A program made the translations under genes and the position numbers. Below, piece by piece: positions 1-16,010 of a DNA stretch of 16,191 nt. The DNA is taken from positions 1 to 16,191 of the forward strand of contig JALWSI010000168.1 of assembly GCA_027080315.1 (NCBI GenBank). The letters run 5' to 3'. Source of the stretch: a bacterium (GTDB lineage Bacteria > Thermosulfidibacterota > Thermosulfidibacteria > Thermosulfidibacterales > JALWSI01). A model generated the notes under the pieces. It worked only from the letters and a program-made list of their open reading frames with translations, did not search any database and had not been told where the DNA came from. Position 1 is the first letter of the stretch. Each line of letters begins with the position of its first letter.

Positions 1-455
1 CCATAATTTAGGTCTATGTAATCTAAAATAGCCGTATGGATCGCTCCCTTGATAGAGCTACCCGGCACGATTAACCCCAAGGTTAGTGGGTTTTTGAGAG
101 CAGGATCGAGAAGCATGCGGTTTTCCGGTTTTTTGCCAAGCACTACGCTCTTGTAGGTTTTAAAAATCCCCCTGTCTTTTACAGGAGCAGCCACCAATGC
201 ATAAGGCTCTGGGTCCTCTATGCGCTCATACAGAAACTTTCGCAGGTCAGCAAAGTTGTGGCTGGCGAAATACGCCGTCACATCCGCCAACGGCTGGCTT
301 TCAAGCCAAAGTGCAATATCTATGAAGTAGAGAAACAGCTCACCATTACTCTTCTCTTTAATAACATACCCAAAAGGGTCAAGGTCTTGACCAGAGCCGA
401 TATGGACAGGGCTCAAAACCTCTAATTTAACCGGAATATAATCTTTAGAGTTCAT
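1..455 (-). CDS. csm5: Csm5, type III-A CRISPR RAMP protein (partial, C-terminus beyond the left edge)
   Basis: This is the N-terminal 151 residues of Csm5, a RAMP-fold subunit at the head end of the Csm interference complex that contacts the 3' part of the crRNA. I translated it from the reverse complement. It opens with a RAMP first strand and His-Gly motif (LSPVHIGSG, residues 14-22) and reaches the conserved VPGSSIKGA motif (residues 130-138) before leaving the window. The ATG overlaps the csm4 stop (TAATG) and is preceded by GGGAGGTG, so the start is well supported and translation is probably coupled to csm4. Its place after csm4 is the standard III-A order. The reading frame is open throughout. 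It could be confused with another RAMP, but motif and position both favour Csm5. Confidence 0.9.
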   Translation of the reverse strand, partial: MNSKDYIPVKLEVLSPVHIGSGQDLDPFGYVIKEKSNGELFLYFIDIALWLESQPLADVTAYFASHNFADLRKFLYERIEDPEPYALVAAPVKDRGIFKTYKSVVLGKKPENRMLLDPALKNPLTLGLIVPGSSIKGAIHTAILDYIDLNY

Positions 456-1438
456 TACACCTCCCAGCAAAACGGAACCATAAGGGGAAGGGTGCATTGG
501 ATGATGTCTTTATTGCTGTGGATGTTTCTCAAGACGCAGGTGCCCAGGTCAATCTCGCGCTTTTTGAAAACAGCCCCCTCTTTGAAAGCGAGGAACGGTT
601 TTTTGAAAGGATTGGTTTCTCCAAACCCATTCCAGACCTTGCCGTATTTGGTCATGAGGGCGTAGGTACCGTCCCATGCCCTCATCTCCGTCGTGGAAAA
701 GACGGATAGGTTTAACAGGTAGTTCCCCTCTGGATTCTCTATGTCATACGGATCAAAGTTCGTGTCCCGGACAATTTCAAACATCCCTCTCCCCACGGAA
801 CGATCCCGTCCGTATCCTTCTTTTTCCATCTGTTCCATCAGACTTTCAAAGGTTTCCAGGAAATCGGGACGGACCTTGGCATACAGGTCAAACCTGAAGG
901 CGTCATCAAAGAAGGTTTCTGCGGTAAAGAATAGGCCCCCCTCCTCCGCCACACGCCCCGTCGTTCGGTCAATCACGTTGTGCGGGGTTTCAGTCTTTTT
1001 ACCTGAATGGGCATCCTGCCTGTCTGCAAGTTCCAGGAAAAGGGACTCGAGGTCAAAACCATCCTTCAGCTTTTTCCACGTCTCTATGGGAATATAGGAG
1101 TTTTTCTTGAATTTCTTTAGCTTTTTCAGGACGTTGAAAAGCGCCGTTTTGCTGTAAACCTTCTCTCCAAAAAGCTTCGGATCCTTCTGAAGGCGCTCAC
1201 GGAGAGATTTTCTCCCGAACCAAGGTACAGCCGGAAAGGGCAAGAGCCCCTCAGGAAAGGCGGAACTTAGTATAAAAGGCGGGTTTCCCTCAACAAACTG
1301 GGCTATGAGATTTTCAAGTGCATCTTCACCCTCCAGTTCCCCGGCGAAACAGAGCAGGTGCCCCGCGAGTGTATCACTTTGTAAAGCAGAGCCCAAAGGG
1401 GATGTGGGTATGAGCTTGTATCTTAAAAACTTCATCAT
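455..1438 (-). CDS. csm4: Csm4, crRNA 5'-tag binding RAMP subunit of type III-A complex
   Basis: Csm4 is the RAMP subunit that caps the Csm complex at the crRNA 5' handle and contacts Cas10. The 327-residue product is typical for the family. Visible signatures are the early SDTLAGHLL segment (residues 21-29, compare the family's SDTLxG), the Gly-rich loop GYGRDRSVGRG (about 208-218), and a conserved-looking C-terminus ending in LPLMVPFCWEV. The start overlaps the csm3 stop as ATGA. A second ATG follows immediately, so initiation could be at 1438 or 1435. No separate Shine-Dalgarno is obvious, so translation is probably coupled to csm3. The next gene, csm5, overlaps this stop by one base. Confidence 0.92.
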   Translation of the reverse strand: MMKFLRYKLIPTSPLGSALQSDTLAGHLLCFAGELEGEDALENLIAQFVEGNPPFILSSAFPEGLLPFPAVPWFGRKSLRERLQKDPKLFGEKVYSKTALFNVLKKLKKFKKNSYIPIETWKKLKDGFDLESLFLELADRQDAHSGKKTETPHNVIDRTTGRVAEEGGLFFTAETFFDDAFRFDLYAKVRPDFLETFESLMEQMEKEGYGRDRSVGRGMFEIVRDTNFDPYDIENPEGNYLLNLSVFSTTEMRAWDGTYALMTKYGKVWNGFGETNPFKKPFLAFKEGAVFKKREIDLGTCVLRNIHSNKDIIQCTLPLMVPFCWEV

Positions 1439-2100
1439 TGGTTAAAGATATTATCAGGGATATCCCACGGCTCTCCATCCAGCGTGACGTCCTCAAACTT
1501 TACCTGACCCGATCCCCGAGAACTTTGACCACCTAAAGCATCAAGCTCAATGAGCCGCATTCCTTTTTGGAGATAAGTAAGGAAGTCCTCCTTATCCCCC
1601 TCAAAAACCTTAAAAGAAAAGCTGAACTCAAACTCTACCCCCGCAGGCACCCTCTCAAGGGGGCGAGGATGCTCAGCCGTTCCAGTAATGCGATTTATGG
1701 TATTCTCATATTTCTCCTCCATAGGAAGATCTCCACTATCAAATTTTTCCTTCCAAGTCTCTGTCATATAAGCATCTCTCACCACAAGGCGCGTGGGACC
1801 AAGGTTCTCCGCTCTATTATCTCCAGCTGCTCCAAAAATGGTGCACACAGGGCAACCTATTTGTCCGCAAGAACAAGGTTTGCCATTACTCACTTTCTCT
1901 GGGAAGTAAGCCAGCTCAATGAGAGAACGCATCTTACCTTTGATGGACGAGCCGGGTATATAGGGCTCACCCGTGACGGGATGTTTTACAATAGGTTGAT
2001 CAAGGCCACCTATCTCAATGGTGTCTTTTGAAGCCCCAATATGAAGCCCAGTTAGTAACCTTATCGTTCCTTTTATGGTTCTAATCTTCTCCAATCTCAT
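1435..2100 (-). CDS. csm3: Csm3, backbone RAMP and target-RNA nuclease of type III-A complex
   Basis: Csm3 forms the filament backbone of the Csm complex and cuts bound target RNA at 6-nt intervals. The 221-residue protein shows the family start GTIRLLTGLHIGAS (residues 11-24), the catalytic loop GGLDQP with Asp34 (equivalent to the Asp32/33 position in studied Csm3 proteins), the YIPGSSIKGKMR motif (47-57), and the Gly-rich GGQSSRGSGQV loop near the C-terminus. A Cys group CSCGQIGCPVC (Cys76, 78, 83, 86) precedes IFG and looks like a zinc site. The start is preceded by AAGGAGAG. It lies 14 nt after csm2 and overlaps csm4 by four bases. With Asp34 present, target RNA cleavage should be intact. 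Confidence 0.95.
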   Translation of the reverse strand: MRLEKIRTIKGTIRLLTGLHIGASKDTIEIGGLDQPIVKHPVTGEPYIPGSSIKGKMRSLIELAYFPEKVSNGKPCSCGQIGCPVCTIFGAAGDNRAENLGPTRLVVRDAYMTETWKEKFDSGDLPMEEKYENTINRITGTAEHPRPLERVPAGVEFEFSFSFKVFEGDKEDFLTYLQKGMRLIELDALGGQSSRGSGQVKFEDVTLDGEPWDIPDNIFNQ

Positions 2101-2114
2101 GGTGTCTCTCCTTA

Positions 2115-2504
2115 TCAGTTATTCTTCATCCCCAATCCGTAACAGAACCCCACCACAGCCTCGAAAAGGAGAATGAACGCATCAAAATCCCTCTCCTCAT
2201 TTATGGCATCAATGTGTTCCCACAAAAAATCTTTGAACCGAGTAGGGATTTTTTGATTCTCAGGGTTCGCAGAATAGGCAGCTTTAGACTTTACCATTTT
2301 TATTAACGGCAGGGTCTTTTCAAACCCTTTCTTATCCACTTTCACTTTCTTCTCCAATGCCTTGAATTCGTTGTAAAACTTCCGGAGTTGATTAGCAGTA
2401 AGTTTCTTCTTTTCCTCTTTCACAAAAAGTCTGGCCCACTTTTCCGCCTCTTTATCCAAGAGGTCTCTCTTTATGTTTCCCTTTTCGTCATAAAAGCGGC
2501 TCAT
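2115..2504 (-). CDS. csm2: Csm2, small subunit of type III-A complex
   Basis: Csm2 is the small all-helical subunit that lines the inner filament of the Csm complex and binds the crRNA-target duplex. The 129-residue product matches the family in size and in its most conserved segments: LTANQLRKFYNEFKALE (about residues 35-51) and LPLIKMVKSKAAYSA (about 65-79). It is highly charged and lysine-rich. The ATG is preceded by AAGGAGGGAG. It sits 14 nt downstream of the cas10 stop and 14 nt upstream of csm3, so it is certainly part of the same transcript. Confidence 0.93.
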   Translation of the reverse strand: MSRFYDEKGNIKRDLLDKEAEKWARLFVKEEKKKLTANQLRKFYNEFKALEKKVKVDKKGFEKTLPLIKMVKSKAAYSANPENQKIPTRFKDFLWEHIDAINEERDFDAFILLFEAVVGFCYGLGMKNN

Positions 2505-2518
2505 AGAACTCCCTCCTT

Positions 2519-4966
2519 CTACTTTCTGTTACGATACAAGGCGTATGAGGCGGGAAACTCCAGATACGACATCCAGAATTCGTCCCCCGCCATCTCTTCA
2601 AAGGTTTTCCTCTCCAGGTGTTCTTGCATGTTCCGTGCTATGTCGTACCTCATGAGAGACTTGTAGAGTCCCGCCCGGAGCTTGCTTTCTTTGTTGCTCA
2701 CAAAATCCCGGTACATGCGGGCATACCTTAGCAACCTGTTCACAAAACCAATGGGGACCTTATCGTCTCCTGACTCATTGACAAGGTTATCCAACCACTT
2801 TCCCTTCTCAAGGAGCTGTGGATAAACGTCCCAGCCAGCGGTCACGCCGAGAAAGGTGAAGGCATTTTTGGCTCCCTTCTCAAAACCTTTGGCTCTGTCC
2901 AACTGCTCCTCCACCACCTCTGCGAGGGAACGAACAGGATAGCGGTGTTTGGCAAGAGCGATTCCTGCAGACAGATGAATATCAAGATTACCCCCCACGT
3001 ATCTCCTGAACTCCGCTGTTAGCTCCTGGGCAAAATCAAGAACATCTACCCATGGCCCAATAAGAAACAGATCATCCCCACCAGCAAAGATCAGATACAG
3101 GTCGGGGTATTTCTTTTCTATAAAGCCAACAAGGTAATCTGAGAAAAAGTGGTTAAGCATTCGGCTCAACGACGCCAGACGAGATATAGTTAACGCTGAC
3201 GGTTCTTTTTTGTCTCTGCCCAAAAGCCCTATGGAAAATATAAGCCCCAGGTTGTCCACATCGGCTTTAAAAGCGGCAAGAAAATCCTTTCCCTCAAAGC
3301 CATCTTCACTTTGCCGTTGAGCTTTTTGGGCAATCATGGAAAAGGTTTTTGGCATACCCTCTACGATCTCACCTCCATTTTCCTCCATCAAGGCTTCGTA
3401 GAGTTTAGGATCCAACCGCCAGCGATTGATGTCCTCGGAAGTCACCTTTGGAATGTAGCCAGCAACGGCGTGATGGTAAAATCTGTCATACCCCCTTAAA
3501 TTAACAATCTCAAGAAAATCCCCTTCTGGTGGACGATCATGGAAACTCATTGAAATATCGCCAAAAAGAGGAACAGACCCTTCACCTGCTCGCCCTTTTT
3601 CAAATGTTATGTATTTGAAGTTATCGTTGGGAAGTCGCTTACCAACCACATTGATTTGAAGGTCACACTCTTCACATAACCTGAGCCCATCCATCTCTCG
3701 GTTTGCCGCATTGCGCTTGCAAACCACGCAGTTGCCTTCTTGGTACTCATTGTAATTTAACTGGAAGATGGGAGAGAAGCTTTCTTTTTTCATAAGGCCA
3801 TGGAACTTTTTCAATTTCTGAGCATCAAGTTGGTCAATGAGATCTTCGTAAACTTCAGGAAATCTTTCTAACGTCAGGTCTTGCTGTGTCAACGTGAAAT
3901 CCCTTAAACAATTCAGGGAGAGTTCGCCCTTGAACTGCCGGTGAAAGAACTTTTGGATTTCCCCGTCTATCTCGTACAGCGTTTGGCGGGTTTTCTTTGT
4001 GTTGGGAAGTAAAAGAAAGAACTTTCCACCAGCATCCATGATCTTAGCCACGGGGTAGAGCCCCAACCGATTCAGGATTTCAATAATCACAGAGCGGGTC
4101 AGCATCTGCAGGTAAAAGGATCGCGCCCGGAAGAGTTTTGCAACTCCTTTGCTATGCGACTTCTCCACGCCCAAAATGTAACTTTGAATCCCGGAGAGGT
4201 CACCTGCGAAGAGAATAAACTTCTTTTCCCTGTCATTTATGTCGGGCAATCCACCCTCTTCACTGTGGTAGGCATACAAAGCCTGAGCAATGGCAGCGGT
4301 TCCCCACAAGTGATCAAATAGAGAAACATCGGGTACAGCCTTGTAGCTTGAGGAGGGAATACACCAGGTGTAATTTTCGAGGATGGAGGACAAACTTCCC
4401 AAGTAATGATTAAATGTCTCATTCCTATCTATTTTCGCCACCTCGTAGCGAAAGGATTCATAGAATGTGGGATAATCCTCTTCTATCTCTTTCCACGACA
4501 CAGGAAAGGGGTCTTCCTCCAATTTTCTCAACTGGTAAGATAGCTCTTCACCCTTTTTATCATCGGAAGTAAGGGACACCTCCGAAAAGATGGGCTTCAA
4601 CGGAGTTTTTCTGAAGCTACCCTCTCCTGATTCAGTACCCATCCTCTCTAACCCCGAGGCAAGCCAATCTGCAACGGCAATAGAGAGGGATTCCAAAGTA
4701 TCATCTGGGAGATGATGTGAGGAGGCGATCTTTGCCAGAACAGATCTATATGCTTGAAGTTCCTTTGGCAAAGGAAGATCATACTCTATGAAATAATCCG
4801 TATAAAGCACATGCAGGTACCCAGGTTTTCCTGTTGCTTTATTTGTAGGACAGTAGGTTGATATCATCTCTTCAGAATGTGGTGCTCTGGCTCTCTGTCC
4901 AAACTTACCAATATCGTGGAGTAACGCCCCTAAGACCACTTTTTCAAGAATGCCACCACACGCCAC
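2519..4966 (-). CDS. cas10: Cas10/Csm1, type III-A CRISPR large subunit (HD nuclease plus GGDD cyclase)
   Basis: Cas10 is the signature subunit of type III systems. On target RNA binding its HD domain cuts single-stranded DNA and its Palm domain makes cyclic oligoadenylate second messengers. The 815-residue protein has the HD motif LLHDIGK (His17, Asp18), a possible second metal-site His pair at 84-85, the first palm region from about 250, and a zinc finger with Cys413/416/431/434. The catalytic palm has KADVDNLG (567-574) and an intact GGDD (629-632), followed by the helical C-terminal domain. Both catalytic centres look active. The start is a GTG at 4966 behind a GAGGGGG stretch. An overlapping ATG frame upstream (4944-5015) is discussed under findings. 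A cyclic-oligoadenylate effector such as Csm6 would be expected nearby but is not in the window. Confidence 0.96.
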   Translation of the reverse strand: MACGGILEKVVLGALLHDIGKFGQRARAPHSEEMISTYCPTNKATGKPGYLHVLYTDYFIEYDLPLPKELQAYRSVLAKIASSHHLPDDTLESLSIAVADWLASGLERMGTESGEGSFRKTPLKPIFSEVSLTSDDKKGEELSYQLRKLEEDPFPVSWKEIEEDYPTFYESFRYEVAKIDRNETFNHYLGSLSSILENYTWCIPSSSYKAVPDVSLFDHLWGTAAIAQALYAYHSEEGGLPDINDREKKFILFAGDLSGIQSYILGVEKSHSKGVAKLFRARSFYLQMLTRSVIIEILNRLGLYPVAKIMDAGGKFFLLLPNTKKTRQTLYEIDGEIQKFFHRQFKGELSLNCLRDFTLTQQDLTLERFPEVYEDLIDQLDAQKLKKFHGLMKKESFSPIFQLNYNEYQEGNCVVCKRNAANREMDGLRLCEECDLQINVVGKRLPNDNFKYITFEKGRAGEGSVPLFGDISMSFHDRPPEGDFLEIVNLRGYDRFYHHAVAGYIPKVTSEDINRWRLDPKLYEALMEENGGEIVEGMPKTFSMIAQKAQRQSEDGFEGKDFLAAFKADVDNLGLIFSIGLLGRDKKEPSALTISRLASLSRMLNHFFSDYLVGFIEKKYPDLYLIFAGGDDLFLIGPWVDVLDFAQELTAEFRRYVGGNLDIHLSAGIALAKHRYPVRSLAEVVEEQLDRAKGFEKGAKNAFTFLGVTAGWDVYPQLLEKGKWLDNLVNESGDDKVPIGFVNRLLRYARMYRDFVSNKESKLRAGLYKSLMRYDIARNMQEHLERKTFEEMAGDEFWMSYLEFPASYALYRNRK

Positions 4967-5456: not shown

Positions 5457-5819
5457 TCACACCAACTTTCTAAGCTCCGTTGATAGTTTTTTAAGCGTAA
5501 TCAGGGTTAAACCAAGTTTTGCTTCCTCTTTCATAAGGGCAAGCAGCACCGCATCTTCACCCACGCTCATGAGAATGGCATCTCCCTTCTCTGCCCTGAT
5601 CAGCACCTGTTCCAAGTTTCCCTTCTCAAGTTCTACAGCTGCCCGTTCTCCTAAGGACAACAGAGCAGCTCCCACTGCCGCCACTCTGTCTTCTTCCATC
5701 TCTTCTGGCAAAAGAGTCTCTATGGGCAAACCGTCAATACTCACTAAAGCCAAAGCCTCAACACCGGGATCAGAGGCCACCGCCTTCTTCAAGGCCTTCA
5801 TTATCTTGCTATCTGCCAT
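5457..5819 (-). CDS. Roadblock/LC7 (MglB-like) domain protein
   Basis: This is a 120-residue single-domain protein of the Roadblock/LC7 superfamily, whose bacterial members (MglB and relatives) usually regulate small Ras-like GTPases such as MglA or act as dimeric scaffolds. The evidence is the fold pattern: an N-terminal helix (residues 1-17), the strand-turn segment GVEALALVSIDGLPIETL (about 19-36), a small-residue helix VAAVGAALLSLGERAAVEL (about 46-64), then VLIRAEKGDAILMSVGEDAVLLALM (about 71-95) and a C-terminal helix. No signal peptide or membrane segment is seen. The ATG is preceded by AGGAGGTG and lies 24 nt after the peroxiredoxin, so the two are probably co-transcribed. No GTPase partner is encoded nearby. 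Its exact role cannot be read from sequence. Confidence 0.8.
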   Translation of the reverse strand: MADSKIMKALKKAVASDPGVEALALVSIDGLPIETLLPEEMEEDRVAAVGAALLSLGERAAVELEKGNLEQVLIRAEKGDAILMSVGEDAVLLALMKEEAKLGLTLITLKKLSTELRKLV

Positions 5820-5843
5820 ATCTTCACCTCCTGAGGTATGTGC

Positions 5844-6335
5844 TTAGCCACCCAATTTCTCAAGCTCTTGCAGCACCTTATCAACGTGTCCTTTGGCCCT
5901 GACGTTTCTCCACCGTTTCAGAATGGTGCCATCAGGACCTATGACAAAGGTGGAACGAATAACCCCCATTCTCACCTTGCCGTACATCTTCTTCTCGCCA
6001 AAGGCCCCGTAGGTCTCCAACACCTTCTTCTCTGGATCGCTCAAAAGATAAAAGTTCAGCCCGTGTTTCTCTTTGAATTTGGCATGGCTTTTAAGGCTAT
6101 CTGGACTCACCCCCAAGACCACGGCTTTATCGCCTATGCGGTTCATGCTGTCGCGAAAGTCACAGGCCTCAGTGGTGCATCCCGGGGTGTTGTCCTTGGG
6201 ATAAAAGTACAGCACCACCATCTTACCCTGACCCAAAAACTGAGAAAGGCTAACCTCTACCTCTTCACCCTCAGGTGAAAGGGCTGGCAGGGTAAAGTCT
6301 GGAGCCTTGCTTCCCTCTTCAGGAATCCCGCTCAT
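5844..6335 (-). CDS. bcp: Peroxiredoxin of the Bcp/PrxQ family
   Basis: This is a thiol peroxidase that reduces hydrogen peroxide and organic hydroperoxides, normally recharged by thioredoxin. The 163-residue protein shows the thioredoxin-fold start APDFTLPAL (residues 11-19), then VVLYFYPKDNTPGCTTEACDFRD (about 40-62), with peroxidatic Cys53 and resolving Cys58 in the CX4C spacing typical of Bcp/PrxQ. The conserved Arg and RSTFVIGPDG region follows near residues 125-135. No signal peptide is seen, so it should be cytoplasmic. The ATG follows TAGGAGGA at a good distance. It leads a short minus-strand operon with the roadblock gene and is divergent from hcp across a region of about 190 nt, which suggests shared oxidative or nitrosative stress control. 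Confidence 0.95.
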   Translation of the reverse strand: MSGIPEEGSKAPDFTLPALSPEGEEVEVSLSQFLGQGKMVVLYFYPKDNTPGCTTEACDFRDSMNRIGDKAVVLGVSPDSLKSHAKFKEKHGLNFYLLSDPEKKVLETYGAFGEKKMYGKVRMGVIRSTFVIGPDGTILKRWRNVRAKGHVDKVLQELEKLGG

Positions 6336-6446: not shown

Positions 6447-6462
6447 TTTGATTCACATCAAA
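6447..6462. promoter_or_regulatory. FNR/CRP-superfamily operator upstream of hcp
   Basis: TTTGATTCACATCAAA is a perfect 6-4-6 inverted repeat containing TTGAT-N4-ATCAA, the consensus half-sites and spacing of FNR boxes. Its centre (6454.5) lies about 41 nt before a transcription start inferred from the -10-like TAGATT at 6483-6488, the class II activator position. FNR-superfamily regulators, including the HcpR group, are known to control hcp genes. Which member acts here is inference. Confidence 0.75.
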
Positions 6463-6482
6463 GCCTACGTCTCCAAAGTTCT

Positions 6483-6495
6483 TAGATTGATCAAT
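6483..6495 (+). promoter_or_regulatory. Putative hcp -10 element and start region
   Basis: TAGATT (6483-6488) matches the -10 consensus at four of six bases and would start transcription near 6495, giving a leader of about 30 nt before the hcp ATG at 6526. There is no good -35 hexamer at the right place, as expected for an activator-dependent promoter using the palindrome at 6447-6462. A second palindrome, ATTGATCAAT (6486-6495), overlaps the start. Confidence 0.4.
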
Positions 6496-6525
6496 GGACC
6501 AAAAAGAGAAGCAGGAGGTGTCAAT

Positions 6526-8154
6526 ATGTTTTGTGACCAGTGCGAGCAAACGGCAAAGGGCGTGGCATGTACAGTTAGAGGGGTATGCGGCAAGACCCCC
6601 GAGGTTGATTATCTGCAGGATCTTCTCCTCTACATGGTTGAGGGAATCGGCATAGTGGCCACCGAGGGTCAGAAGGTTGGCGTGAGAGACAACAGGGCGG
6701 ATGTCTTTGTGTGTGATGCCCTCTTCTCAACCCTCACCAACGTCAACTTTGATCCCCAGCGTTTCGTCAACTACATTAAGGAGGCCACCGAGATCAGAGA
6801 AGAGCTGAAGGCCAAGGTGAAAGAGGCTGGTGGCAACACCGACTTTCCAGAGGGCCCTGCAACCTTCCAGCCTGCTGAAGAGGTGGAAGAGCTCATCAAA
6901 CAGGGAGAGATGGTGGAGCTTAAACCCACCCCCAGTCTTGACAAAGACATCTTCTCTCTCAAAGAGACCCTGCTTTACGGCATAAAGGGAATGGCATCTT
7001 ACGCCTATCACGCCTACGAGCTGGGACAGGAGGACCAGAAGGTTTACGACTTCATCCACGAAGGCATGGCAGCCCTCACCAGAAACGACATGAGCTTAGA
7101 CGACTGGCTGGGCATGGTTCTGAAGTGCGGAGAGATGAACCTGCGCACCATGGAGCTTCTGGATGCCGCCAACACCGGCACCTACGGCAACCCCGAACCA
7201 ACCCCGGTCTCTCTGGGAGTGAAGAAGGGTAAGGCTATTCTGGTCTCTGGCCACAACCTCAGGGACCTTGACGATATCCTGAAACAGACCGAGGGCAAGG
7301 GCATCAACGTTTACACCCACGGCGAGATGCTTCCCTGCCACGGATATCCAGAGCTTAAGAAGTATCCCCACCTGGTTGGGCACTACGGCACCGCCTGGCA
7401 GAACCAGCAGAAGGAGTTTGCAGAGTTTCCCGGCGCCATCGTCATGACCACCAACTGCCTCATGCCTCCAAAGGACTCCTACAAAGATAACCTCTTCACT
7501 GTGGGTCCAGTTGGCTGGCCCGGGGTGGCCCACATCTCGGGCAGGGACTTCTCAGCCGCCATCAACAGGGCCTTGGAGCTTCCCGGCTTCACCGAGGATG
7601 TTGAAGGCAAGACCATTCTCACAGGCTTTGCCAGAAACGCCGTGCTCTCGGTAGCAGACAAGGTGATAGAGGCAGTTAAGGGTGGCAACATTCGTCACTT
7701 CTTCCTGGTTGGAGGATGCGACGGCGCAAGACCGGGACGTAACTACTACACGGAGTTTGTTGAGAAGGCCCCCAAGGACACGGTGATTCTCACCCTTGCC
7801 TGCGGCAAGTTCAGGTTCTTTGACAAGGATCTTGGCGATATCGGCGGTATCCCCAGGTTGCTGGACGTGGGCCAGTGTAACGACGCCTACTCTGCGGTGC
7901 AGATCGCCCTTGCTTTGGCAAAGGCCTTCAACTGCGACGTGAACGAGCTGCCCCTCTCCCTCATCATCTCCTGGTTTGAGCAGAAGGCCGTGGCCATTCT
8001 CTTGACCCTGCTCTACCTGGGGATAAAGAACGTGAGGCTGGGCCCCACACTCCCTGCCTTCGTAAGCCCCAACGTTCTGGACGTGCTGGTGAAGAACTTT
8101 GGCATAAAGCCCATAAGCACCGCTGACGAGGATCTGAAGGCAATACTGGGTTAA
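6526..8154 (+). CDS. hcp: Hybrid-cluster protein (Hcp), class I, NO/hydroxylamine reductase
   Basis: Hcp carries an Fe-S cluster and an Fe-S-O hybrid cluster. It reduces hydroxylamine in vitro and is linked to nitric oxide detoxification in anaerobes. The 542-residue product starts MFCDQC with Cys3, 6, 15, 21 (CX2CX8CX5C), the class I [4Fe-4S] pattern of strict anaerobes, unlike the wider-spaced enteric type. Hybrid-cluster ligands can be placed: His243 (SGHNLRD), Glu267 (HGEMLPCHG), Cys311 (TTNCLMPP), Cys398 (VGGCDGARPGR, the persulfide position), Cys426 (LACGKFRF), Cys451 (GQCNDAYS), Glu485 and Lys487 (SWFEQKA). All are present. The start at 6526 is preceded by AGGAGGTG. A longer frame from a TTG at 6448 is rejected because it runs through the operator. 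The ferredoxin partner follows 53 nt downstream. Confidence 0.97.
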   Translation: MFCDQCEQTAKGVACTVRGVCGKTPEVDYLQDLLLYMVEGIGIVATEGQKVGVRDNRADVFVCDALFSTLTNVNFDPQRFVNYIKEATEIREELKAKVKEAGGNTDFPEGPATFQPAEEVEELIKQGEMVELKPTPSLDKDIFSLKETLLYGIKGMASYAYHAYELGQEDQKVYDFIHEGMAALTRNDMSLDDWLGMVLKCGEMNLRTMELLDAANTGTYGNPEPTPVSLGVKKGKAILVSGHNLRDLDDILKQTEGKGINVYTHGEMLPCHGYPELKKYPHLVGHYGTAWQNQQKEFAEFPGAIVMTTNCLMPPKDSYKDNLFTVGPVGWPGVAHISGRDFSAAINRALELPGFTEDVEGKTILTGFARNAVLSVADKVIEAVKGGNIRHFFLVGGCDGARPGRNYYTEFVEKAPKDTVILTLACGKFRFFDKDLGDIGGIPRLLDVGQCNDAYSAVQIALALAKAFNCDVNELPLSLIISWFEQKAVAILLTLLYLGIKNVRLGPTLPAFVSPNVLDVLVKNFGIKPISTADEDLKAILG

Positions 8155-8164
8155 ACAGAGATAA

Positions 8165-8187
8165 GGCCCTCCCCCTGTGGGAGGGCC
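8165..8187 (+). promoter_or_regulatory. Intercistronic hairpin between hcp and the ferredoxin gene
   Basis: GGCCCTCCC (8165-8173) and GGGAGGGCC (8179-8187) form a perfect 9-bp GC-rich stem with a 5-nt loop. It begins 10 nt after the hcp stop, and the downstream Shine-Dalgarno follows within 20 nt. There is no T-tract after it, so it is not a typical intrinsic terminator. It more likely stabilises the hcp 3' end or lowers expression of the second gene. Confidence 0.7.
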
Positions 8188-8207
8188 ACAACCAGAAGGA
8201 GAGACAG

Positions 8208-8945
8208 ATGAAGGTTTTAAGGAAGATAATTGAGATAGACGAAGAGCTCTGCGACGGTTGCGGAGAGTGTATCCCCGCCTGCCCAGAAGGGGCCCTACAG
8301 ATCGTAAACGGGAAGGCGAAGCTGGTAAAAGAGAACTTCTGCGATGGCCTTGGCGAGTGCATAGGCAACTGTCCCAAGGGGGCCATTCGCATAGTTGAGA
8401 GAGAGGCCGAGGCCTTTGACGAAGAGGCGGTGAAACAGGAGATGGAGGCTAAGAAAAGGCAAGAAGAGCCCCTGCCCTGCGGATGCCCCTCTACCCACGT
8501 AAAGAGCTTTAGCCCCTCGCCTTGCGAGATCGCCAACGAGCCTCAAGACCTGGAACCCACGGCCTCCCAGCTTTCACACTGGCCGGTTCAGATACGTCTG
8601 GTTCCCCCAACTGCACCCTTCCTAAAGAACGCCCACTTAGTGGTGGCGGCAGACTGCACCCCCATAGCCTACCCCACCTTTCATCGCGACTTTCTCAAGG
8701 GCAGGGTGGTGATGATGGGATGCCCCAAGTTTGACAATGTGCAGGATTACGTAAACCGCTTTGGCCAGATCTTTAAAGAGGCCAACATACGCAAGGTGAC
8801 GGTCTTGGTGATGGAGGTGCCGTGTTGCTCAGGACTCCCCATGGTGGTGAAGAAGGGGATGGAGCTTGCCCAGAAAGAGGTGCCTCTTGAAGTGGTGGTG
8901 ATAGGAATAGAGGGAGGAATCATCAAAAGGGCTCAGGTTGCGTGA
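8208..8945 (+). CDS. 4Fe-4S ferredoxin-domain protein, probable Hcp partner
   Basis: This 245-residue iron-sulfur protein has a ferredoxin-like N-terminus and a larger C-terminal domain. The first cluster site is complete (Cys15/18/21/25, CDGCGECIPACP). The second is CDGLGECIGNCP (Cys45/51/55), where the second Cys is Leu48. It should therefore hold a three-Cys cluster or none; relatives of this family that I recall share this CDGLG form. The rest has CGC at 91-93, Cys150 and Cys172 in DCTP and GCPK, and a Cys pair in VPCCSG (206-207), further possible metal or redox sites. Ferredoxin-like genes next to hcp are a known arrangement, so it probably supplies electrons to Hcp. The ATG follows AAGGAGAG. 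Its 3' end overlaps the convergent thrC by 13 bp. No membrane segment is seen. Confidence 0.88.
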   Translation: MKVLRKIIEIDEELCDGCGECIPACPEGALQIVNGKAKLVKENFCDGLGECIGNCPKGAIRIVEREAEAFDEEAVKQEMEAKKRQEEPLPCGCPSTHVKSFSPSPCEIANEPQDLEPTASQLSHWPVQIRLVPPTAPFLKNAHLVVAADCTPIAYPTFHRDFLKGRVVMMGCPKFDNVQDYVNRFGQIFKEANIRKVTVLVMEVPCCSGLPMVVKKGMELAQKEVPLEVVVIGIEGGIIKRAQVA

Positions 8946-12011: not shown

Positions 12012-12097
12012 GGCAGAGCCCTCAATACCACAGGGCAGAAAGTATAGAAAGCTCACTCCAAAAGGGCCACGAATAGAACAAGCCGTTTACATGTCAC

Positions 12098-12125
12098 TTG
12101 ACAATTGTATTTTCATGTATATTCT
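12098..12125 (+). promoter_or_regulatory. Promoter of the MerR-NifX operon
   Basis: A perfect -35 TTGACA (12098-12103) is followed after 16 nt by TATTCT (12120-12125), four of six matches to the -10 consensus. This predicts a start near 12132 and a leader of about 26 nt before the GTG at 12158. The -35 ends in the palindrome ACAATTGT (12101-12108). MerR-type regulators usually bind the spacer region, so autoregulation is likely but no longer operator repeat is obvious. Confidence 0.65.
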
Positions 12126-12157: not shown

Positions 12158-12844
12158 GTGAAAGAGAGAACCCCTTTGTACCCCATGGGTGTGGCTGCAG
12201 AGCTTGTGGGAGTCCACCCCAGGACCCTTCGCATCTACGAAGCCCAGGGACTGATTAAGCCTAAGAGGAGAGGGGGTAAGAGATACTACTCTGAAAGCGA
12301 CATTGCCCGTATCAGGTGCATCAAGACCCTGCTCAATAAAGGCACGGGAATTGAAGGTGTTAAGAGACTCTACTCTCTGGCACCTTGCTGGAAGGTGCTT
12401 GAGTGCGGCGATAAGCGAGAGAACTGTGCGTGGTATAAAGCCTATGGGAGGTGGAGAATGAGAATCGCTTTCTCGTGTGAAGGACCAGAAGGATTGGAGG
12501 CAACCGTCTCTCCACACTTCAGAAGGGCCAGTCACTTCACCTTTGTTGAGCTGGACGGAGACGGAGAGATCGTTAACGTGGAGGTGAAAGAGAACCCCTT
12601 TGTGAACATACACGGTCCAGGGATAGTGCCCCAGTTTGTCAAAGAAGAGGGAGCTGACATAATAGTTGCAGGAGGCATGGGGGTAAGGGCCTCTCAATTC
12701 TTCCAGAACATAGGAGTCAAGCCTTTAATTGGGGCCCAGGGCAAGGTGATAGAGGTGCTGCAGGCCATACTTAGAGGAGAAGAGTTTGAGGGAAGCTTCT
12801 GTGAGCACGGCGAGCACCACGGACACGAGGCGTGCAACAACTAA
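12158..12844 (+). CDS. MerR-family regulator fused to a NifX/NifB-like cofactor-binding domain
   Basis: This 228-residue two-domain protein begins with a MerR/HspR-type winged helix: YPMGVAAELVGVHPRTLRIYEAQGLI (about residues 8-33) is the helix-turn-helix and RRGGKRYYSESDIARI (about 37-52) the wing. A Cys linker follows (CWKVLECGDKRENC, Cys77/83/90). Residues 101-210 form a dinitrogenase iron-molybdenum cofactor-binding domain like NifX and the NifB C-terminus (MRIAFSCEG, SPHFRRASHFTFVE, GADIIVAGGMG). The tail CEHGEHHGHEAC is rich in His and Cys. I infer a sensor whose NifX domain binds a metal or Fe-S cofactor and controls the operon. The start is a GTG behind AAGGGAGG, 9 nt away; the frame extends to a TTG at 12098 but that codon is the -35 element. 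It leads the Fe-S ATPase operon. An internal start may also operate. Confidence 0.85.
   Translation: MKERTPLYPMGVAAELVGVHPRTLRIYEAQGLIKPKRRGGKRYYSESDIARIRCIKTLLNKGTGIEGVKRLYSLAPCWKVLECGDKRENCAWYKAYGRWRMRIAFSCEGPEGLEATVSPHFRRASHFTFVELDGDGEIVNVEVKENPFVNIHGPGIVPQFVKEEGADIIVAGGMGVRASQFFQNIGVKPLIGAQGKVIEVLQAILRGEEFEGSFCEHGEHHGHEACNN
12446..12460 (+). promoter_or_regulatory. Internal in-frame ribosome binding site and ATG (free NifX domain)
   Basis: GGGAGGTG (12446-12453) matches the anti-Shine-Dalgarno complement at seven of eight bases. It is followed after 4 nt by an in-frame ATG at 12458, exactly where the NifX-like domain begins (MRIAFSCEG). Initiation here would give a 128-residue stand-alone NifX-type protein (12458-12844) in addition to the MerR fusion. 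Whether it is used is inference. Confidence 0.45.
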
Positions 12845-13400: not shown

Positions 13401-14258
13401 ATGCGCATCACAGTGGCCAGTGGAAAGGGGGGCGCTGGAAAGACCTCGGTGGCTGTGAGCCTGGCTCTCGCTGCGAAGGAAGAGTGCCTGCTGGTGGACT
13501 GCGACGTAGAAGAGCCAAACTGCTCCCTTATTCTTCAGGCTTCAATGGATAAAGAAGAGGCTGCCACCATCCCTGTACCCCAGGTGAACGAAAACCTCTG
13601 TGCCTTCTGCAAAGAGTGCTCAAAATCATGCAGGTTTCACGCCATAATGATACTTCCCCACAAGGCCGTGGTCTTTGAGAAGATGTGCCATGGCTGCGGC
13701 GTGTGCAGCTTTGTGTGTCCTCTGGACGCCATCTCTGAGGTGCCAAGGGAGATAGGAAAGGTGAGTTGGGGAGAAGGTAGAGGGGTAAGGCTGATTGAGG
13801 GTCGTCTCAAGATTGGAGAGGCCATGGCCCCTCCCCTTATCCGCCAGGTGAAGGCCAAGATAGGCCATCAGGAGCCCCCCTTGGTGATCCTTGATGCCCC
13901 ACCGGGTGTCTCCTGCCCCTTTGTAGAGACCGCCAAGGGCAGCCACTACATCCTCTTTGTGGTTGAACCTACCCCCTTTGGTTACCACGACTTTGAGCTA
14001 TCATCCCGGGTGGTGGAAGAGCTTGGGATCCCCTGGGGAGTGGTGGTGAACAAGGACATCAAAGGCCAAGCGGATGACACTCTAAGCAAGATCAGGGAGA
14101 CTTGCAGCAATAGAGGTGGGTCGGTTCTTGCTATGCTTCCCTTTAGCTTAGAGGTGGCTAAGGGATACTCTAAGGGAGAGCCAATGGTGGTGGCCGATCC
14201 TTCTCTAAAACCTGTCTTCTCCGAGGTGCTTGAGAAGATCTCTGGGGGTGTCCAATGA
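13401..14258 (+). CDS. MinD-superfamily P-loop ATPase with inserted ferredoxin domain (first copy)
   Basis: This is a 285-residue ATPase of the MinD/Mrp superfamily interrupted by a 2[4Fe-4S] ferredoxin. The deviant Walker A SGKGGAGKTS is at residues 7-16. The ferredoxin insert has Cys67/70/73/77 (CAFCKECSKSC) and Cys96/99/102/106 (CHGCGVCSFVCP). The ATPase resumes with VILDAPPGVSCP (162-173) and VVEPTPFG (187-194). Such proteins, often in adjacent pairs, occur in anaerobes near NifX-like and Mrp genes. They are thought to couple ATP hydrolysis to electron or Fe-S transfer, but no biochemical role is settled. The start lies one base after the preceding stop with only a weak ribosome binding site, so translation is probably coupled. 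It overlaps the next gene by ATGA. Confidence 0.9.
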   Translation: MRITVASGKGGAGKTSVAVSLALAAKEECLLVDCDVEEPNCSLILQASMDKEEAATIPVPQVNENLCAFCKECSKSCRFHAIMILPHKAVVFEKMCHGCGVCSFVCPLDAISEVPREIGKVSWGEGRGVRLIEGRLKIGEAMAPPLIRQVKAKIGHQEPPLVILDAPPGVSCPFVETAKGSHYILFVVEPTPFGYHDFELSSRVVEELGIPWGVVVNKDIKGQADDTLSKIRETCSNRGGSVLAMLPFSLEVAKGYSKGEPMVVADPSLKPVFSEVLEKISGGVQ

Positions 14259-15121
14259 ACAGCACGAGAGAGGTGGCTGTTATCAGTGGCAAAGGAGGCA
14301 CTGGGAAGACCACAATAAGCGCATCTTTGGCCACCCTGCTGGAAGAGGGGGTTATTGTGGACGCAGATGTAGATGCTCCCAACCTCCACATCCTTCTGGA
14401 GCCACAGGTTGAAGAGAGCCACAGGTTCATGGGTGGCTTTGTGGCAGAGATAGATAAAAACCTGTGTCAGAGATGCGGAACCTGCCATCAACTCTGCAGG
14501 TTTGAGGCGGTTATTGCCCCCAAAGAAGGAGCCTACCAGATAGACCCCATAGCCTGTGACGGATGCGGGCTGTGCCATCTAAGCTGTCCTAACAACGCTG
14601 TAAGCATGATCCAGAAGGAGGTAGGGTACTGGTACAGGTCTAACACAAGACACGGCCCCTTATTTCATGCCCTTCTTCACCCTGGAGAAGATAATTCAGG
14701 AAAGCTCGTAACCCAGATACGAACCTCGGCCCAGCAGTTTGCGAAAGAGAAGGGCTTAAAAAGGATACTCATAGACGGGCCACCGGGAATAGGCTGTCCT
14801 GTGATCTCCTCTTTAACAGGGGTGGATGCAGCCCTTCTGGTGGTGGAGCCCACCCCCTCTGGAATCCACGACGCAAAGAGGATCGTTGAGCTCACCAGAA
14901 GCTTCAACCTTGAGCTTTACCTCTTGGTGAACAGGTTTGACATAAACCGGGAAATGTCAAAGAGTATAGAGGAGTGGTGTCAGAAAGAGAGAATAGAGCT
15001 GGGGGGGAAGATACCCTTAGACCCCAGGATCCCCCAACTTCTCTTGGAAAGGAGAACCCCTTTGGAGATAAGTGAGATAAGAGACACCTTAGAGTGCCTC
15101 TATGAGAAACTCTTTAATTAA
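14255..15121 (+). CDS. MinD-superfamily P-loop ATPase with inserted ferredoxin domain (second copy)
   Basis: A 288-residue paralogue of the gene before it, in the same order of parts: Walker [11 protein letters not shown] (residues 11-20), ferredoxin insert with Cys71/74/77/81 ([11 protein letters not shown]) and Cys101/104/107/111 ([12 protein letters not shown]), then [12 protein letters not shown] (about 161-172) and [11 protein letters not shown] (about 187-197). All cluster ligands are intact, so it should hold two [4Fe-4S] clusters. The ATGA overlap with the first copy implies equal, coupled synthesis, and the two may form a heterodimer as MinD-type ATPases dimerise around ATP. The sequences differ substantially outside the motifs, pointing to an old duplication rather than a recent one. 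Confidence 0.9.
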
Positions 15122-15134
15122 GGGAGACACGGAG

Positions 15135-16010
15135 ATGGAGTGCACCGAGAAGAAAGGAATCTGCAGCAGTTGCCAACACGCTTCTACCTGCAGCGCAGAC
15201 GAACAGCGCAGGCATCAAGAAGAGCTGATGAAAGAGCGGCTTCAGCTTATACGCCACAGAATCATGGTGATGAGCGGCAAGGGAGGCGTTGGGAAGAGCA
15301 CCGTCACGGCAAATCTCGCCAACCTTCTGGCAGAAGAGGGCTACAAGGTTGGGGTGCTGGATGCCGACATCCACGGTCCCAACATCCCCACCATGCTGGG
15401 GGTGGAGGGACGAACCATGGGCATGAGCCCTGAGGGTATAGAACCCTTAGAGCTTCCCAACGGGCTCAAGGTGGTCTCTTTGGGGTTTCTCATAAAAGAC
15501 AAGGACACTCCGGTGATCTGGAGGGGCCCCCTCAAGATGGGGGTGTTGAGGCAATTCTTGAGCGAGGTGAACTGGGGAAACTTAGACTTCCTCTTTGTGG
15601 ATCTGCCTCCCGGCACAGGGGACGAGCCCTTGAGTATAGTGCAGCTCATACACCATCTTGACGGGGCTATTGTGGTCACCACCCCCCAGCATGTGGCCCT
15701 GCTGGACTCAAGAAAGAGCGTCAACTTCTGCCACAAGGTGAATGTGAAGGTGGTGGGCATAGTTGAGAACATGAGCGGGCTCATCTGCCCCCACTGTGGA
15801 GAGGAGATAGACCTCTTCAAGAAGGGAGGGGGAGAGAAGGCCTCTGTTGAGCTTGGAGAGCCCTTCTTGGGAAGGGTGCCCATAGACCCCGCTTTGGTGG
15901 AAGCAGGGGATCGGGGGGTGCCTTTTGTGACCAGGTTCGCCAAATCCCCAGCGGCCAAGGCCCTGAAAGAGATAGGAGAGAGGCTGCTACAATTTGTGGG
16001 AGAGAAGTGA
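15135..16010 (+). CDS. mrp: Mrp/NBP35-type iron-sulfur cluster carrier ATPase
   Basis: Mrp/ApbC/NBP35 ATPases bind a [4Fe-4S] cluster at a dimer interface and pass it to target proteins. The 291-residue product has an N-terminal Cys motif (Cys3/10/13/19, ending [10 protein letters not shown]) like the NBP35 N-terminus, though the first gap is shorter. It also has the Walker A GKGGVGKS (48-55), [14 protein letters not shown] (76-89), the Switch region [12 protein letters not shown] (154-165), and the bridging CPHC (Cys218/221) needed for cluster binding. A longer frame starts at 15102 inside the preceding gene, but the ATG at 15135 has AAGGGAG at good spacing and begins right at the Cys motif. 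It completes a carrier set with the two ferredoxin-ATPases and the NifX-like proteins. Confidence 0.95.

Follow-up and report, generated by a model that had tools for sequence, protein, structure and literature searches.

The DNA analysed here (the window, 16,191 nucleotides) constitutes contig 168 in a genome of 1.84 Mb split into 253 contigs. It carries an operon of five genes separated by short or negative spacings (12844/12866, 13399/13401, 14258/14255 and 15121/15102), the first of which encodes a protein with a MerR-type head and a NifX-type body (Table 1). This ORF runs in a single frame from a GTG codon at 12158 to a stop codon ending at 12844, and an earlier note on this DNA, which had read it as one frame at these coordinates, was right in this respect; the second NifX-like protein, two ferredoxin-ATPases and Mrp carrier that it placed downstream are likewise borne out by Pfam and NCBIfam. 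ORP2, the second NifX-type protein, carries a stretch rich in Gly and Met and probably has a coiled coil at its C-terminus, the tail having been judged by eye. Four cysteines are clustered at the N-terminus of the Mrp protein (15102-15200) as C-X6-C-X2-C-X5-C, an arrangement that recalls Nbp35. Elsewhere in the window, the minus strand holds type III-A CRISPR genes at 455-4966, which encode Csm2, a RAMP protein, Cas10/Csm1 with an HD domain, and a protein of 327 aa that matched no Pfam model and is perhaps Csm4; no direct repeats were found in positions 1-470. A Roadblock/LC7 domain protein adjoins an AhpC/TSA-type peroxiredoxin at 5457-6335, and a hybrid cluster protein (Prismane, 2.4e-178) is followed by a two-cluster ferredoxin-like protein at 6448-8945.

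Table 1. Features of the operon and its promoter region in the window
Feature	Position	Strand	Basis
Predicted palindromic operator ACTTGACAAT-TGT-ATTTTCATGT	12096..12118	+	Conserved upstream block, genome scans
Sigma70-like promoter TTGACA-16-TATTCT, overlapping the operator	12098..12125	+	Consensus scan, 10/12 matches
MerR-CW-NifX fusion protein, 228 aa	12158..12844	+	Translation; Pfam; six same-order homologues
MerR (HspR/GlnR-like) winged-helix DNA-binding domain, aa 8-71	12179..12370	+	Pfam MerR_1
Cys linker PCWKVLECGDKRENCAWYK (C77, C83, C90)	12383..12439	+	Alignment with 22 unfused MerR-CW proteins
NifX/ORP-type domain, aa 101-207	12458..12778	+	Pfam, AlphaFold2, Foldseek, tree
Cys/His-rich C-terminal tail CEHGEHHGHEACNN	12800..12841	+	Sequence
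Second NifX-type protein (ORP2), 177 aa	12866..13399	+	Pfam Nitro_FeMo-Co 7.1e-19; ORP2 clade
MinD-type ATPase, two 4Fe-4S motifs (Orp3/Orp4-like)	13401..14258	+	Pfam CbiA, Fer4
Second MinD-type ATPase, two 4Fe-4S motifs	14255..15121	+	Pfam CbiA, Fer4; gene order kept in relatives
Mrp/Nbp35 Fe-S carrier ATPase	15102..16010	+	Pfam ParA/NUBPL 2.7e-100

Both halves of the first protein are recognised well above the Pfam cut-offs, MerR_1 at aa 8-71 (E 6.2e-19; 68.3 bits against a cut-off of 21.6) and Nitro_FeMo-Co (PF02579) at aa 114-204 (E 9.9e-17; 61.5 bits against a gathering cut-off of 26.3), so that a MerR-type winged helix and a full NifX-type domain do share one frame, as had been noticed from the letters alone. 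The best NCBIfam match of the head is HspR (NF047375), at 68 bits and under the 105-bit cut-off of that model, and Foldseek placed the head with GlnR and NmlR, in concordance with a profile search of PDB sequences. For the C-terminal part, Foldseek returned TM1816 (1o13), PH0822 (2yx6) and the apo orange protein (2wfb). The AlphaFold2 model (mean pLDDT 78) comprises two folded domains, with a NifX block mostly at 89-95 apart from a few weaker stretches, a weakly predicted linker (block means of 61, 54 and 54 across aa 71-100) and a disordered tail of low confidence at aa 217-228. The three-Cys linker and the Cys/His tail are real features conserved in the homologues, in which the Cys and His of the tail are retained at positions that are not fixed. 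The linker corresponds to the first half of a Cys-rich CW module known from unfused MerR relatives (alignment with 22 proteins), and in alignment A2, C54, C77, C83 and C90 are invariant whether the proteins are fused or unfused. A Pfam search with the linker gave no named model, and a literature search for a "two-CW domain" returned no paper.

The fusion heads the same operon in seven of the nine genomes of the order, that of the window included and one copy being contig-truncated; the relatives are uncultivated bacteria represented by metagenome assemblies, and the names in their NCBI titles (Aquificota, Thermodesulfobacteriota, Deferribacteres) conflict with the single-order assignment. Full-length homologues at 59-62% identity are present in five of them (G001, G002, G003, G005 and G007) and the truncated one in G004, and these six further assemblies represent two further families. 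Operon order is the same in all seven fusion-bearing genomes; a MerR-NifX pair thus precedes the NifX, ferredoxin-ATPase and Mrp genes wherever it was seen, the regularity for which the earlier note had proposed to search. In G006, the fusion gene is not visible because the contig with the operon stops within the first ATPase gene, and in G008 (73% complete) a search for the second ATPase gave no match. Between the closely related copies L070 and L071, dN and dS are 0.019 and 0.495 in the MerR head, 0.016 and 0.455 in the linker, and 0.072 and 0.952 in the NifX part; dN is far below dS and purifying selection is strong over all three. A frame error confined to one genome, which would have undone the original observation, or an assembly artefact is ruled out by the full-length homologues, the shared operon order and this selection. 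That a frame error or chance joining produced a protein with no function is of negligible probability, given the six further assemblies, the selection running through the junction and the conserved operator described below.

Outside the order, no fusion was found among 98 genomes or, with the full-length profile, among an overlapping set of 386, and none was seen in 394 further genomes (some overlap possible) or in 4 more, searches run with no positive control. A contig scan with family-specific patterns, which would miss distant fusions, returned only the six known relatives and one NifX-only locus. In the open-access literature, no paper describing a MerR-NifX fusion was found.

By its gene content, the operon is of the orange protein (ORP) type and not a nitrogenase operon: it groups genes of the NifX/ORP type with those for two ferredoxin-MinD ATPases and for an Mrp carrier, the gene set expected of an ORP system. 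Against MrpORP (NF041136), the Mrp protein scores 372 bits, under the cut-off of 450, and covers positions 2-250 of 365; it corresponds to the P-loop part of MrpORP only and is without the C-terminal DiNase domain. In none of the order's nine genomes did a match to PF00148, taken as the mark of nitrogenase components, rise above the Pfam cut-off, while the controls were positive. Sensing of FeMo-cofactor is unlikely because nitrogenase genes are missing, and a FeMo-type reading of the Mo-type cofactor that had been suggested as a ligand is disfavoured on this ground and on that of the ORP-type operon.

The two halves of the fusion occur separately beside operons of the same type in other bacteria. 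Unfused MerR-CW genes adjoin ORP-type operons in three genomes of one phylum (G181, G467 and G468), and in another phylum (G267) such a gene is divergent from an ORP2-MinD-MinD-MrpORP operon. Many loci (e.g., L098, L100, L101, L105, L107, L111 and L112) in turn have a stand-alone NifX gene next to genes of the ORP2 and MinD types. In the phylogenetic tree, the fused NifX domains form one group (96/95) on the side of stand-alone NifX, many members of which come from ORP-type operons, and ORP2 stands apart (98/100). The MerR head was too short for placing the fusion among the unfused relatives in a tree of its own. In unfused MerR-CW proteins, the first Cys half-module is followed by a second (PCW...C...CxxC), and it is this place that the NifX domain occupies in the fusion. 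From these sequence relationships, we infer that the operon's own NifX protein and its MerR-CW regulator were joined into the fusion. Of the earlier suggestion that a NifX domain in the C-terminal place makes a ligand-sensing MerR regulator, the fusion itself is borne out; what was joined looks like the operon's own NifX, by the tree and by the separate halves elsewhere, and not like a generic ligand domain. The fusion and ORP2 are the only two PF02579 proteins in the window's genome, so that the free NifX subunit of the operon seems to have given way to the fused copy.

Upstream of the fusion gene, ACTTGACAAT-N3-ATTGTCAAGT stands as one conserved block in all six upstream regions aligned, those of the genomes with upstream sequence. 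The copy in the window departs from it by 2 mismatches, and its right arm is degenerate. With up to 3 mismatches allowed, the pattern occurs once each in G000, G001, G002, G003, G005 and G007, in every case at the promoter of the fusion gene, and the reversed pattern gave 0 sites in the same six genomes, which are related and hence do not amount to six independent tests. Shuffles of the window gave a mean of 0.01 expected sites. The half-sites CTTGA and TCAAG are separated by 11 bases, as they are in the HAIR box of HspR, CTTGAGT-N7-ACTCAAG (PMC6102357); the predicted operator is thus of the HAIR type (CTTGA-N11-TCAAG), with inner bases that differ from HAIR. In G267, ATACTTGACAATTACAATTGTCAAGTAT, with a separation of 12, lies between the unfused MerR-CW gene and the ORP operon and is the sole such site in that genome; in the G181 clade, just the left half-site is discernible. 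The DNA-binding region guessed before, 12098-12125, overlaps the conserved palindrome at 12096-12118. Two further sets of sites were noted: ACTTGACAATGGTTTTGTCAAGT, almost the same palindrome, where a small HspR-like gene of G450 starts (L151:4075-4097), and two weak operator-like sites with 3 mismatches in G006 (C14:3347-3369 and C160:19249-19271), adjoined by no recognised ORP-type gene.

From its head domain and this operator, the fusion protein very probably binds DNA, and a dimer of the HspR-like heads would occupy the single palindrome. The local single-target operator and the position of the gene at the head of the operon point to autoregulation. The -35 hexamer TTGACA is conserved within the left arm of the operator, so that the bound dimer would cover the -35 region of its own promoter and would most likely repress the operon. 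Kinship with HspR and GlnR, whose kin are mostly repressors, and the arm lying across the -35 region make repression rather than activation the probable mode. Activation by the classical MerR route, in which the protein binds between the -35 and -10 elements and remodels a long-spacer promoter once an effector is bound, keeps some probability because the -10 box and the spacer are ambiguous: the -10 assignment is uncertain and spacers range over 15-19 bp across the relatives. Membership of the MerR family, an operator that extends into the -35/-10 spacer and, in three relatives, hexamers weakly resembling a -10 box at 19 bp speak for it. However, the best promoter in the window has a 16-bp spacer, the unfused promoters of the G181 clade read TTGACA-16-TATAAT or TAAAAT by eye, and the HspR/GlnR kin lean the other way, and on the whole an activator is quite unlikely.

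What the protein senses is a separate question. The balance tilts towards a dedicated autoregulator of an ORP-type iron-sulfur or metal-cluster operon, with the NifX domain reading the state of the pathway. Under this scheme, the fused domain would either hold metal-sulfur cargo or dock partners (the ferredoxin-MinD ATPases, ORP2 or Mrp), and its state would alter DNA binding through the Cys linker, by which the synthesis of carriers could be matched to their load. That sensing does proceed through the fused NifX domain is about evenly poised. The Fe-S carriers of the operon and the regulators beside other ORP operons point to iron or cluster supply as a candidate signal. Such local regulators were seen at six loci (L105, L113, L115, L100, L101 and L111) and are of the DtxR type with FeoB, Fur or PadR, which suggests one ORP system under varied local control.

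The fused domain itself departs from its relatives at one motif. HFG(R/H)C is frequent among stand-alone NifX/ORP relatives, of which 21/21 have HFG and 17/21 the motif Cys in the alignment, though it is not a Pfam criterion; in the fused domains, HFRRA or HFRMA replaces it in 7/7, the window's copy having HFRRA instead of HFGRC. Because of this loss, carrier-like metal binding is not to be assumed, and a role of the domain as bait for proteins becomes a serious rival to cluster binding. In such a scheme, excess unloaded ATPases or ORP2 would bind the regulator as co-repressors. There are precedents for this: HspR has DnaK as a co-repressor, and GlnR has feedback-inhibited glutamine synthetase. 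HspR and GlnR are the closest MerR relatives by profile and fold. The replacement of the motif in every fused copy and the apparent substitution of the fused domain for a stand-alone operon subunit agree with protein sensing, as does the presence of NifX-like proteins, MinD-like proteins and MrpORP in one Desulfovibrio complex (PMC6345978). The retained cysteines of the linker, however, favour a metal or cluster, and we regard the bait scheme as possible while still short of probable.

The same cysteines raise another alternative, in which sensing (of Fe-S, Zn or redox state) falls to the CW linker, presumably as it does in the unfused relatives, and the NifX domain is carried along as a passenger, still functioning as an ORP subunit. 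Unfused MerR-CW proteins from several phyla indeed share the first CW half, and its cysteines belong to the invariant set of alignment A2. However, the second CW half is absent where NifX starts, which leaves the ancestral module incomplete in the fusion, and purifying selection acts on the NifX domain as well; a linker acting alone is therefore rather doubtful. Returning to the NifX domain as the reader of the pathway, it may tentatively be put forward, at somewhat less than even weight, that a captured NifX subunit, the only one left besides ORP2, doubles as a DNA-bound gauge through which carrier load feeds back on transcription.

If the switch is a fused pathway protein, the regulator may directly read the supply of the pathway. 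An ORP regulator with a defined predicted operator and a fused pathway subunit provides a handle on the ORP system of anaerobes, and whatever frees the fusion from DNA would point to the cargo of the ORP complex. For the MerR family, the fusion suggests a sensor domain of a new kind, and for the ORP system a route of control other than the sigma54 control of Desulfovibrio.

Among known regulators, HspR resembles the fusion in the head domain, in the half-sites and their 11-base separation, and in a site at its own promoter. The fusion differs from it in its score (68 against 105 bits), in the Cys linker and NifX domain, and in its ORP-type operon; identity with HspR proper is ruled out by the score and by a separate HspR-like protein in the window's genome, encoded after a DnaJ-like gene (DnaJ by eye). 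The unfused MerR-CW regulators of G181, G467, G468 and G267 share the head, the first Cys half-module and the operon neighbourhood with the fusion, and the operator of G267 is nearly that of the fusion, whereas they carry their own second CW half-module where the fusion has NifX. The fusion is not alone in linking NifX to a domain of the DNA-binding type, because a DUF134-NifX fusion exists in G029 (L156:5323-5994; Pfam 6.9e-18 and 8.5e-22). This protein likewise combines a DNA-binding-type helix-turn-helix with a NifX domain, but its helix-turn-helix is unrelated to MerR and its NifX domain retains HFGHC. The thioferrate storage proteins IssA and IssX belong to the same globular domain family (IPR003731; PMC5524996), and the Gly/Arg/Met-rich region in the ORP2 proteins of the relatives may also be compared with them; IssA is without a DNA-binding domain, unlike the fusion. 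In Desulfovibrio, the orange-protein complex includes MrpORP, Orp8 and two proteins with ferredoxin motifs, Orp3 and Orp4, and orp1/orp2 with MrpORP parallel the operon of the window in that genes for an Mrp protein and two ferredoxin-MinD ATPases accompany those of the NifX/ORP type (PMC6345978). The orp genes of Desulfovibrio are under sigma54/IHF control (PMC3897727). There, a DiNase domain is fused to Mrp, whereas in the window Mrp is without DiNase and it is NifX that is fused, to a MerR regulator.
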